DNA of 64,000 bases from Anaerovibrio sp. JC8 (GTDB lineage: Bacteria; Bacillota; Negativicutes; Selenomonadales; Selenomonadaceae), in NCBI RefSeq assembly GCF_002100115.1, contig NZ_ANBM01000001.1:124001-188000 (forward strand), written 5' to 3'. Positions 1,454 through 5,216 of the stretch are shown here, one piece after another (within the stretch, counting starts at the first letter, position 1; every line of letters starts with the position of its first letter). A program made the translations under genes and the position numbers. The notes under the pieces are model-generated. The model was not told the origin of the DNA. It saw only the letters and a list, made by a program, of their open reading frames with translations, and ran no database searches.

Positions 1454-2680
1454 TCACATAACAATTTTGTCCAAAATTCCCGTCAAGTGGGCAATGGTAA
1501 CCCCATAATTTGTCATTGGCACGGCCATCTCCCTGGCCCGTTCGATTCTGGACAATACATAGCGGCGGTTAAACATACAGCCACCACATTGAATAATCAA
1601 ATCATACTTAGTGAGCTCCTGCGGAAAATCCGTGCCACTAACCACATCGACCTGCAGCCCCTCCCCGAAGCGCTGCCGCAACAGCCGTGGTATTTTAACA
1701 CGTCCAATATCCTCAGCCAAAGGAGCGTGGGTACAGCATTCTGCTATGAGCACCCGGGATTTTTCTGTGAGGCTGTCAATATGATGTGCACCCTCCACGT
1801 AATATTTTAAATCCCCCTTATAAGCTGCAAACAACACGGAAAAGGAGGTCAGCCTGCTTGCCGCCGGCTTATGCTCAAACACCAGCTTAAAGGCCTGGGA
1901 ATCAGTAATAATAAGCTGCGGTGCTTCCTTCAGCCGGCTCAGGGTGAGCTCCAGCTTATCAGTGGTGGTTGATACCACTGTACATTTCCTGTCCAGCAGT
2001 TCCCGAATGGTCTGAACCTGAGGCAGGATAAGACGCCGCTTTGGAGCCTGAATATCCTGAGGCATAACCAGCAGCACCACATCATCTTCCTTGACCAGCT
2101 GGCCAGTGATAAATGCCTCGTCATAATCCTCGGGCATAACCTTGGACAGGGCCACCACAACCTTGTCCCGCTGCGTCTTTCTATCGGCTTTGTCACCATC
2201 ACAGTCAACTGTCAGCAGGACGTCCTTGTTGGGATGTATTCTTCCCCCTATTTCCTTGTTCAAAGCATCGGTTGGTTCCTCTTCGCCAAAGGAATTAATC
2301 AAACACAATACTGCTATATTCTTGCCATGAAAATAATCCAACAGCTTGTATTCTTCAGAAAAATCCTTCTGCCCATTACCAGGAAATACCAACACTGCTA
2401 TATCAGTCTTTTCCATGGCCAGCCTGGTCTTTTCCAGACGCTGGGCCCCCAGCACGCTATGGTCCTCAATGCCGGGGGTATCAATAATGACACAGGCTCC
2501 CAAGGGATGGATTTCCATGGCCTTATACACCGGATCCGTAGTGGTTCCGGCCACATCCGACACAATAGATGTGTTCTGACCGCTTATTAAATTAATCAGC
2601 GATGATTTGCCGCTGTTGGTCCGGCCAAAAATCCCGATATGGAGCCGATTGGCGTTTGGTGTTGAATTCAATTCTGCCAT
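1454..2680 (-). CDS. hydF: [FeFe]-hydrogenase maturation GTPase HydF
   Basis: HydF is the scaffold on which the 2Fe subcluster is completed before transfer to the hydrogenase. The 408-residue protein starts with a TrmE/Era-type GTPase domain: P-loop GRTNSGKSS (about residues 19-27) and DTPG (about residues 67-70). The C-terminal cluster-binding region has CTH (about residue 317) and CGGC (about residue 366). The residue before CGGC is Gln, where many HydF proteins have His (family pattern CxH...HCxxC); that His is known not to be a universal ligand. Two bases separate it from the hydG stop, so it is cotranscribed with hydE and hydG. Confidence 0.95.
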   Translation of the reverse strand: MAELNSTPNANRLHIGIFGRTNSGKSSLINLISGQNTSIVSDVAGTTTDPVYKAMEIHPLGACVIIDTPGIEDHSVLGAQRLEKTRLAMEKTDIAVLVFPGNGQKDFSEEYKLLDYFHGKNIAVLCLINSFGEEEPTDALNKEIGGRIHPNKDVLLTVDCDGDKADRKTQRDKVVVALSKVMPEDYDEAFITGQLVKEDDVVLLVMPQDIQAPKRRLILPQVQTIRELLDRKCTVVSTTTDKLELTLSRLKEAPQLIITDSQAFKLVFEHKPAASRLTSFSVLFAAYKGDLKYYVEGAHHIDSLTEKSRVLIAECCTHAPLAEDIGRVKIPRLLRQRFGEGLQVDVVSGTDFPQELTKYDLIIQCGGCMFNRRYVLSRIERAREMAVPMTNYGVTIAHLTGILDKIVM

Positions 2681-2682
2681 AA

Positions 2683-4107
2683 TTAAAACCTAAAATCCCT
2701 CTGTCCATTACTAATATCGGCCAAGTGCTCTGCGGCAATTTTCCGCACCTTCTCGTTTGGAATTTTCTCCAGCTCCTTTTCAATCATGGCCAAGCCCTTT
2801 GACTTGGTATCGTCGCTGGCATAATCCTCCAGATACTCCTTCAGGGTCATGAGGGCATTTGGATGACAGCAATTGAGAATCTGCTTGTTCTTGCACAAAG
2901 TCATGAATCTGTCCCCGGTGCGGCCTTCACGATAGCAGGCGGTGCAGAAGCTAGGCACATAGCCCAGGGTAATCAGCCAATTTATAACCTCATCCAATGT
3001 CCGACGGTCACTGACATCAAACTGGGCAGAGTTGTCATCCTCAGGCTCCTCCTCATAATAACCGCCTACGCTGGTACGGGAGGCCCCGCTTATCTGGGAA
3101 ACGCCCATAGCCAGAGCCTTTTCGCGGACAGCCTTTCCCTCACGGGTAGAGATAATCATACCGGTATAAGGCACGGCCACCCGAATAAGGGCAATGATCT
3201 TCTCAAACATTTCATCGCTGATACCATTATCAAAGGCCGATGGGTCAATATCATCCGCCTTTTTTACCCGTGGTACGCTGATGGTATGCGGACCGACTCC
3301 ATGAGCCGCCTCCAGATGCTCTGCATGCATCAACAAAGCCGCAAACTCATAGCGATAGCTCTCCAAGCCAAAGAGTACCCCCAGACCCACATCGTCGATA
3401 CCGCCTTCCATGGCCCGGTCCATGGCCTCGGTATGGTAGGCATAATCATGCTTTGGCCCCGTTGGATGAAGCTGCTCATAGGATTCCTTGTTGTAGGTTT
3501 CCTGGAACAATATATAAGTGCCGATGCCGGCTTCCTTCAGCTTGCGGTAGTTTTCCACCGTGGTAGCGGCAATATTTACATTTACCCGACGGATAGCACC
3601 GTTCTTGTGCTTGATGTTATATATGGTATTGATGGAATCCAGCACATATTCAATTGGATTATTAACCGGATCCTCACCCAGCTCAATAGCCAGACGCTTA
3701 TGTCCCATATCCTGCAGGGCGATTACTTCCCGGCGGATTTCGTCCTGGGTCAGCTTTTTCCGGCTGATATGCTTATTTTTCATGTGATATGGACAGTACA
3801 GACAGCCATTAACACAATAATTGGACAGATATAAAGGGGCAAACAGCACGATACGGTTGCCATAATAATCCTCTTTGATCTGCTTGGCCAGCTCGTATAC
3901 CTCCTGCAGCTTTTCCTCATTGTCACAGGCCAACAAGACCGATGCTTCCCGGTGGCTCAGCCCCTTGCCCAGCCTTGCCTTGGCAATAATGGCATCCACT
4001 ACCTCCATATTGTCCTTGTTGTCGTCGGCATACTTCAGAGCAGCTCTGACCTCCTCATCAGCTATAAACTCCTCTGCCTTCATTGATTTAACGTCATACA
4101 TTCTCAT
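2683..4107 (-). CDS. hydG: [FeFe]-hydrogenase maturase HydG, tyrosine lyase
   Basis: Radical SAM enzyme that cleaves tyrosine to p-cresol and supplies the CO and CN- ligands of the H-cluster. The 474-residue length is normal for the family. The SAM-cluster motif CVNGCLYC (CX3CX2C) lies near residue 98. The second, C-terminal cluster motif is visible as CTAC followed by a further Cys in CHPN near residue 420, matching the family's CX2C...C arrangement. Its ATG overlaps the hydE stop (ATGA at 4104-4107), so the two are translationally coupled. Only the hydE-hydG-hydF set would explain this gene's presence beside an [FeFe] hydrogenase. Confidence 0.96.
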   Translation of the reverse strand: MRMYDVKSMKAEEFIADEEVRAALKYADDNKDNMEVVDAIIAKARLGKGLSHREASVLLACDNEEKLQEVYELAKQIKEDYYGNRIVLFAPLYLSNYCVNGCLYCPYHMKNKHISRKKLTQDEIRREVIALQDMGHKRLAIELGEDPVNNPIEYVLDSINTIYNIKHKNGAIRRVNVNIAATTVENYRKLKEAGIGTYILFQETYNKESYEQLHPTGPKHDYAYHTEAMDRAMEGGIDDVGLGVLFGLESYRYEFAALLMHAEHLEAAHGVGPHTISVPRVKKADDIDPSAFDNGISDEMFEKIIALIRVAVPYTGMIISTREGKAVREKALAMGVSQISGASRTSVGGYYEEEPEDDNSAQFDVSDRRTLDEVINWLITLGYVPSFCTACYREGRTGDRFMTLCKNKQILNCCHPNALMTLKEYLEDYASDDTKSKGLAMIEKELEKIPNEKVRKIAAEHLADISNGQRDFRF

Positions 4108-5135
4108 TCACCCACTTTATAATCTCCCCGGTCACAGACGATGCTGTAACCGATATTACCCACTCTCTTTTTCAGACACTCTATGCACTCAGCTGCTTCT
4201 TCCCCCGTGCAGATTTTCTTGTCATAAATTGCATATTTTTCACGAAACTCCCGTGGTGAAAGGTTTGGCATCACCACATTGGCACCGGCCTGCAAGCCCT
4301 TTTCCCGGCCTATAGGATCAATGGTTCCCAGGGCCGTAGTAGCCGGCAGCAAAACCCTTGGCAGCAAAAGTCGAATAATTGACAGTAAGGTAACCGTCAT
4401 ATCCACCGTCCCCGCTGCTTTATCACCCATAGGTGTGTCATGCTGAGGTATAAATGGACCAATCCCCACCATGTGAGGATTCAGCTCCCTTAAAAACTGC
4501 ATATCCTCATACAGGGTGGCCACGCTTTGCCCCGGCGAGCCTACCATAAAGCCGGCTCCCACCTGATAACCGATGTCCTTTAAATTATACAGACATTCCT
4601 TACGGTTAGTCAGCGACATTTCACGGGGATGCAAGGTTTTATAATGTCCAGCATCAGCGGTTTCATGCCGCAGCAAATAGCGGTCAGCCCCGGCCTTGAA
4701 ATAGGCTTCATAGCTCCCCCGGCTCTTTTCCCCTATGGACAAGGTAACAGCACAATCCGGATAGCTGGCTTTTATATCCCCTATGAGTTGACATATGCGG
4801 TCATCGGTATAGTATTCGTCCTCGCCCCCCTGAAGCACAAAGGTACGAAACCCCAATCTATATCCTTCTCCGCAGCACGCCAATATTCCTTCTTGACTTA
4901 GCCGATATCTTTCTATTATCTTGTTTCCACGGCGTATGCCACAATAATAACAGTTATTGCGGCAATAATTTGTAAACTCAATGAGCCCACGGATATACAC
5001 ATCCTTGCCGTAAATCCTTTCCCGCACAGCCACTGCCCGCTGCTTCAGATAATCAGCCTCATTTCCATCCAGAAGATATTGAAGCTGCTCAAGGGTAATA
5101 TTCTGTTTTGCCTCAATTTCATCAACGATAGAAAT
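4104..5135 (-). CDS. hydE: [FeFe]-hydrogenase maturase HydE; apparent ATT start
   Basis: Radical SAM maturase acting with HydG and HydF on the H-cluster 2Fe site. SAM motif CRNNCYYC is plain. The first conventional start in frame is a GTG at 5033, giving 309 residues, but it has no ribosome binding site and would remove about 34 residues that HydE proteins normally carry. The open frame continues upstream to a stop near 5159, and its extension (ending in YLKQRAVAVRERIYG) looks like a normal HydE N-terminus. A strong AGGGGGCGG site at 5141-5149 sits at ideal distance from an in-frame ATT at 5133-5135; no ATG, GTG or TTG occurs in frame between. I therefore place the start at ATT, giving 343 residues. 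A base error hiding a normal start is the alternative. Confidence 0.85.
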   Translation of the reverse strand: MSIVDEIEAKQNITLEQLQYLLDGNEADYLKQRAVAVRERIYGKDVYIRGLIEFTNYCRNNCYYCGIRRGNKIIERYRLSQEGILACCGEGYRLGFRTFVLQGGEDEYYTDDRICQLIGDIKASYPDCAVTLSIGEKSRGSYEAYFKAGADRYLLRHETADAGHYKTLHPREMSLTNRKECLYNLKDIGYQVGAGFMVGSPGQSVATLYEDMQFLRELNPHMVGIGPFIPQHDTPMGDKAAGTVDMTVTLLSIIRLLLPRVLLPATTALGTIDPIGREKGLQAGANVVMPNLSPREFREKYAIYDKKICTGEEAAECIECLKKRVGNIGYSIVCDRGDYKVGE

Positions 5136-5187
5136 AAAACCGCCCCCTAAATGTCGGAACTATCAGAAAAAGATATACACATTAAAA

Positions 5188-5216
5188 ATACTACTCCTTT
5201 TTGTGCATATAATCAA
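5188..5216 (-). promoter_or_regulatory. candidate sigma-A promoter of hydEGF
   Basis: TTGATT (5211-5216), 17-base spacer, TAGTAT (5188-5193) on the minus strand, about 50 bases before the hydE ribosome binding site. Confidence 0.5.

Follow-up and report, generated by a model that had tools for sequence, protein, structure and literature searches.

The analysed window, a stretch of 64,000 nucleotides from contig NZ_ANBM01000001.1 of Anaerovibrio sp. JC8, carries on its minus strand the maturation genes hydE, hydG and hydF (Table 1). The hydE product matched the profile TIGR03956 with 565.7 bits (curated cut-off 254.6), and its nearest solved structures were HydE entries such as 3cix (Thermotoga maritima). 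The upstream stop TAG at 5162-5160 is followed directly by the open hydE frame, which runs from 5159 to the TGA at 4106-4104. Its first in-frame ATG, GTG or TTG (canonical codons in the following) is the GTG at 5033-5031, 34 codons below an ATT at 5135-5133, and reading from this ATT yields 343 residues. An earlier note on this DNA had described the frame as open for 34 codons above the GTG, without ATG, GTG or TTG in that part, and as giving 343 residues, all of which the sequence bears out.

Table 1. Position, strand and characteristics of the features at the hydE locus (window numbering).
Feature	Position	Strand	Characteristics
Proposed -35 element TTGATT	5211..5216	-	TTGnnn, 17-nt spacer, TAnnAT in 13/15 (not L002, L015)
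Proposed -10 element TAGTAT	5188..5193	-	same conserved pattern
11-codon ORF, ATG 5182 to TAG 5147, other frame	5147..5182	-	without counterpart in congeners
Shine-Dalgarno site AGGGGGCGG, start-proximal, extended	5140..5148	-	duplex -12.3 kcal/mol
Putative hydE ATT start codon	5133..5135	-	ATT at 14 of the 15 HydE loci of the genus, ATA at the remaining one; coding-type substitution begins here
hydE, [FeFe] hydrogenase H-cluster radical SAM maturase, 343 residues plus stop	4104..5135	-	TIGR03956; solved HydE structures such as 3cix
hydG	2683..4107	-	TIGR03955, 923.9 bits; first ATG overlaps hydE stop
hydF, next gene, same strand	1454..2680	-	TIGR03918, 501.5 bits

The hydEGF cluster in Anaerovibrio

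The genus set consisted of 16 Anaerovibrio genomes, JC8 included, and HydE was found in 15 of them, with proteins 68-82% identical to that of JC8. The cysteines C58, C62 and C65 of the CX3CX2C radical-SAM motif are invariant in all 15. A second radical-SAM match adjoins hydE at every one of these loci (HydG in JC8), an ATG overlaps the hydE stop or follows it within 20 nt at 14 of them (not in L015), and in 11 of them the same contig carries a hydrogenase match about 3 kb further down. Besides the ATG overlapping the hydE stop, hydG of JC8 has a second ATG at 4101, in the context ATGTATGA, and this is the one common to the congeners. The only genome of the 16 lacking a HydE match, G005 (81% complete), also lacked a hydrogenase match over the cut-off, through either loss or incomplete assembly; in G004, HydE was present and a hydrogenase match over the cut-off absent.

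Downstream of hydF, an [FeFe] hydrogenase gene matching TIGR02512 occupies positions 1-1256 and continues past the window (L148 3766-5256), followed by a ferredoxin-like ORF. The N-terminus of this hydrogenase is twin-arginine-like (MSNKMSRRKFLKVV), which suggests an exported enzyme. Between hydF and the hydrogenase gene, a hairpin formed by GGGATGGT and ACCATCCC (1405-1431), judged by eye to be perhaps a terminator, may separate the hydrogenase gene from hydEGF.

Leader and Shine-Dalgarno site of hydE

The promoter-like pattern listed in Table 1 ends 33-59 nt above the hydE start in the 13 loci that have it and occurred in 2.1% of shuffled leaders. From its conservation we infer that the hydE transcript would begin near 5181, with a leader of about 45 nt. 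The automatic promoter scan did not list this site, which has 8/12 consensus matches by count, below the scan threshold; the scan returned two sites, as compared to 1.4 on average in shuffles, namely TTGGCA-18-TAAAAT at 5257-5228 and another inside hydE. Transcription from 5257-5228 would place the 11-codon ORF upstream of hydE within the message. Since the AAGGAG of this ORF falls between the proposed -35 and -10 elements, the ORF is probably untranslated.

The earlier note had placed a ribosome-binding site seven bases before the ATT, a distance that applies to the AGGGGG part of AGGGGGCGG, while the whole of AGGGGGCGG ends four bases before the codon. Duplexes computed with an assumed anti-SD sequence, not one taken from these genomes, ranged from -9.6 to -16.0 kcal/mol in front of the ATT or ATA in all 15 loci, with a median of -11.6 (JC8, -12.3). 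The 16S 3' end was not found in JC8, nor in the 16 genomes by pattern or by Rfam model. For 238 control genes of the JC8 contig, each taken at its best canonical start, the median was -10.05 and 13% had a duplex as strong as that of JC8 hydE, and the two weakest hydE duplexes of the congeners lay near this control median. The hydE site is therefore good, not extreme. A duplex as strong preceded 0.2% of random ATT triplets (n = 4000; 360 kb of the JC8 contig, plus strand, any frame). RNA structure around the hydE start followed no common pattern in the 15 loci, the probability of being unpaired ranging from 0.12 to 0.60 for the Shine-Dalgarno site and from 0.02 to 0.81 for the start codon.

Conservation of the start codon and competing readings

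The codon at HydE residue 1 was ATT in 14 of the 15 Anaerovibrio loci, ATA in L015, whose HydE is the most divergent of the genus (68% protein identity to JC8), and ATG in none. The start at ATT put forward in the earlier note is thus supported by comparison, as congeners carry ATT (once ATA) at this position. Two observations had been named there as speaking against it, an ATG in relatives and a sequencing error; neither turned up, with ATG in 0/15 and ATT in 14 genomes. Since the relatives carry ATT (once ATA) and not ATG, the non-canonical start is not explained by a sequencing error or a frameshift in JC8. The upstream ATG that the earlier note had located at 5120 occupies 5122-5120, out of frame, and lies downstream of the ATT.

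When mismatches to the JC8 sequence were counted by codon position in ungapped comparison, a flat distribution was seen in the eight codons preceding the ATT (46/55/57 of 112) and a coding-type one in codons 2-34 (87/41/187 of 462), and hence the coding region appears to begin at the ATT. The alignment of JC8 HydE with TIGR03956 starts at profile position 2, corresponding to residue 4 of the protein read from the ATT, and the alignment with the solved structures at residue 12. Judged by these comparisons, AUU (once AUA) together with a Shine-Dalgarno site is the conserved predicted start of hydE in Anaerovibrio. In JC8, translation of hydE very probably starts at the AUU at 5135-5133, and this start very likely goes together with a Shine-Dalgarno-dependent mechanism.

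The start codon was further compared with the other isoleucine codons of the gene. The 15-row HydE alignment holds ten invariant Ile columns, column 1 (the start) included, and column 1 alone has a single codon in 14/15, whereas in each of the other nine two or three codons occur, the commonest in at most 12/15; overall, Ile codon usage in the 15 hydE genes is ATT 40%, ATA 34% and ATC 26%. On the gene tree, column 1 needs one change and the other nine need 1, 4, 4, 4, 4, 4, 5, 5 and 7, the single change belonging to column 52 (ATT 12, ATC 3). Among invariant columns other than Met and Trp, however, 17/167 hold one codon in at least 14/15, showing that a frozen codon by itself is not unique to the start position. 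Moreover, because the congeners are related and one change on the tree accounts for the column, the 14 ATT codons count for far less than 14 independent observations.

These counts bear directly on the strongest alternative, namely that the ATT is a real start of no regulatory meaning: an ancestral AUG would have drifted to AUU, which a good Shine-Dalgarno site made tolerable, and would then have been inherited. One change on the tree is enough for such a history, and all the ATT codons may descend from one event, yet a single point mutation restores ATG and none of the 15 loci has it. Likewise, the maturase may be required in small amount only, as we presume, and the Shine-Dalgarno site is not outstanding relative to the controls in every species, but the tree requires four to seven changes at eight of the other nine invariant Ile codons and one change at the ninth, and the sole change seen at the start led to ATA, which is also a weak codon. 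We regard neutral inheritance as possible and lean against it.

Outside the genus set, 95 further hydE loci were inspected, consisting of the best 80 of a longer match list and 15 others, two of which are Anaerovibrio (L062 and L063). With positions carried over ungapped and the presence of ATG scored irrespective of a Shine-Dalgarno site, an in-frame ATG stood within -12 to +8 codons in 82/95 loci, only GTG or TTG in 7 and none in 6. Without the two Anaerovibrio loci (L062 among the 82, L063 among the 6), a nearby in-frame ATG was present in 81/93 of the loci inspected. The 15 Anaerovibrio HydE proteins formed one group in a tree of 34 rows (100/99). Given the nearby ATG in 81 of these 93 loci and the single Anaerovibrio group, the ATT of hydE is probably derived and arose on the branch to the genus.

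Five of the loci outside Anaerovibrio have none of the three codons nearby; four of these have an ATG further up, and among the matches listed only L105 has none. In L105 (2472-2500; RUG213, an uncultured Clostridiales), the frame has no ATG, GTG or TTG from its upstream stop down to a TTG that lies 12 codons beyond the position aligned with the ATT, and an ATC stands behind AGGAGGTATAAGT. This could be a second non-canonical hydE start, or else an assembly error, and hints that hydE may have taken a non-canonical route more than once.

The remaining alternatives place the start elsewhere. Each species could use another near-cognate codon, or a canonical codon lacking a Shine-Dalgarno site, close to the ATT, which would then be an internal Ile codon. 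Some in-frame canonical codon does lie upstream in 7/15 loci, and JC8 has an ATC at 5129; however, the nine upstream canonical codons of those seven loci vary in place from -3 to -13 codons and have duplexes of only -0.3 to -3.8 kcal/mol, and the other 8/15 loci have no canonical codon in the open frame above the ATT. Five congeners have their in-frame ATG 6-11 codons above the ATT, with almost no Shine-Dalgarno duplex. Together with the frozen identity of the ATT, as opposed to the other invariant Ile codons, this makes the use of such codons highly unlikely.

Still harder to credit is a start at the ATG at 5182, from which the HydE frame would be reached by a -1 shift or through a base missing from the assembly. 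This ATG has a fair Shine-Dalgarno duplex (-8.4 kcal/mol, AAGGAG), and 11 nt separate the end of its ORF from the ATT, but a corresponding ORF exists in no congener, the AAGGAG in the promoter spacer is probably outside the mRNA, the ATT with its Shine-Dalgarno site is present in 14 genomes, so that an error in JC8 is no explanation, and no slippery heptamer was seen by eye in the stretch 5161-5149, the only one in which the shift could take place. A frameshift, an assembly error and also an upstream ORF with reinitiation were accordingly rejected on the grounds of the congener ATT, the missing counterpart ORF and the promoter position.

The least probable reading, a canonical start downstream at the GTG at 5033 (residue 35) below a frame that is open by chance, has in its favour that this GTG is the first canonical in-frame codon and that L004 has a GTG at the same residue with a duplex of -8.8 kcal/mol, but it is contradicted by the mere -3.0 of the JC8 GTG, by the alignment with 3cix from residue 12 on, by the coding-type substitutions from codon 2 and by L003, L010, L012, L013 and L015, where the frame reaches its first downstream canonical codon only at residues 85-162, past the radical-SAM cysteines. 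When the first downstream canonical codon of each of the 15 loci is considered, fair sites are limited to that of L004 and the TTG at residue 18 of L002 (-7.5), both inside the conserved coding region. The close relatives L012 and L013 have no canonical codon upstream and the next one downstream only at residue 100, beyond C58, C62 and C65, and a non-canonical start is thus unavoidable there if active HydE is made. An annotation limited to ATG, GTG and TTG would shorten JC8 HydE by 34 residues and could start the L012 and L013 proteins only past the catalytic cysteines.

Possible translational control and comparison with known systems

With the start at the AUU at 5135-5133, initiator tRNA would place (formyl)methionine there, as it does at the infC start. 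The leader of about 45 nt, as deduced from the conserved promoter, would present the extended Shine-Dalgarno site at normal spacing and so let the 30S subunit bind despite the third-base mismatch, while the weak codon would hold initiation well under the AUG level. The close hydE/hydG junction may let hydE initiation set the output of the following genes, and given the ATG at the hydE stop in 14/15 and the radical-SAM match alongside in 15/15, the effect may spread downstream. By analogy with known systems, we consider a translational throttle on hydEGF through the weak start codon reasonably probable. The earlier note had likewise raised limited maturase translation and pointed to IF3, and both possibilities fit what has been published for AUU, AUA and GTC starts of other genes.

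Since IF3 discriminates against AUU, the supply of maturase would follow IF3 and the initiation state of the cell, as for infC and for sigR of Streptomyces. That such a response is of physiological use can be proposed only tentatively on this analogy. It is somewhat unlikely, although conceivable, that the whole hydEGF maturation operon is under initiation-factor control, with the synthesis of HydE and, through coupling, of HydG tied to IF3 and to the state of the initiation machinery, and H-cluster assembly thereby geared to translation capacity. In that case, the discrimination known from infC would have in hydE a metabolic target without autoregulation. Few bacterial genes are known to keep AUU or AUA across species, and hydE would add a metabolic enzyme heading a gene cluster; the phylogenetic setting of its ATT makes selection testable, and it bears on the question whether the ratio of maturase to hydrogenase is set by weak start codons.

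A close parallel lies in the same cells. In all 16 Anaerovibrio genomes, infC has ATT (8), ATC (2) or ATA (6) behind GGAGGTG or a similar site, with a median duplex of -14.2 kcal/mol, its start being placed by homology and the choice less sure in L057-L061, where an ATT stands two codons above the ATA. Both genes therefore combine a predicted AUH start with a Shine-Dalgarno site, of the strong GGAGGTG type in infC, and hydE looks like infC in this respect. The infC start codon appears to vary within the genus (L046-L061), and the open frame of L056 has the ATA as its first codon. The product of infC, IF3, discriminates against the start codon of its own gene, whereas HydE has no known part in translation, and no direct feedback loop would be expected. 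Another gene with such a start, pcnB of E. coli, codes for poly(A) polymerase and comes from another phylum than Anaerovibrio.

The statement in the earlier note that ATT starts are known mainly from infC proved too narrow, as AUU starts are reported for pcnB in E. coli (PMC4245954), cvfC1 in staphylococci (PMC13009471) and pncA in Borrelia (PMC13398362). The pcnB start resembles that of hydE as a rare AUU, named alongside infC (PMC4245954). The staphylococcal cvfC1 (AUU) and ccpN (AUA) have conserved starts with an extended Shine-Dalgarno site, like hydE, and cvfC1 is also first in its operon; unlike hydE, these starts were mapped by ribosome profiling and the genes do not encode metal-cofactor enzymes (PMC13009471). 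In pncA (bbe22) of Borrelia burgdorferi, as in hydE, a metabolic enzyme has an AUU start and is truncated in databases, and it differs in the genetic, biochemical and structural support reported for pncA (PMC13398362). Furthermore, sigR of Streptomyces has a non-canonical start and belongs to a pair of genes coupled in translation; a canonical codon in its place is reported to cause overproduction of the protein, and the GTC start is repressed by IF3 (PMC5472188). It differs from hydE in that the codon is GTC and not ATT, the product is a sigma factor, and IF3 repression was demonstrated for sigR and is a proposal for hydE (PMC5472188). As to the strength of such starts, AUU- and AUA-type codons gave about 10% of AUG in S. 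aureus reporters in poor medium (PMC13009471), and in vitro AUU paired with the anticodon CAU lost ground with rising IF3 (PMC10158994). Based on its sequence features, the putative hydE start joins the known conserved AUU and AUA starts of infC, cvfC1 and ccpN. Among the papers listed on hydE and hydG start codons, mainly open-access, no title dealt with an unusual hydE start.

A survey of 360 kb of the JC8 contig provided the background for this comparison. Of 1105 stop-to-stop ORFs, 264 were left once overlapping frames had been removed, and 255 of these had a match of at least 55% identity in at least one of the stretches compared, 400 kb from G013 and 280 kb from G015. The alignment extended at least 5 codons upstream of the first canonical codon in 154 ORF-genome pairs. 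The 22 ORFs in which this codon comes at least 17 codons into the frame were inspected, sixteen codon by codon and six by substitution counts and overlaps, a scope in which starts shortly before an internal ATG (5-16 codons) would be missed. Among these 22, only hydE had a coding pattern above its first canonical codon that was not explained by an overlapping gene, with ORF 204003-204552 left unassigned owing to a gapped alignment. This region (G000:C1:204003-204552, L152, outside the window) is alike in two congeners and has well-conserved frames overlapping on both strands, with most of its long open frame devoid of a start codon, and it is possibly an RNA gene.
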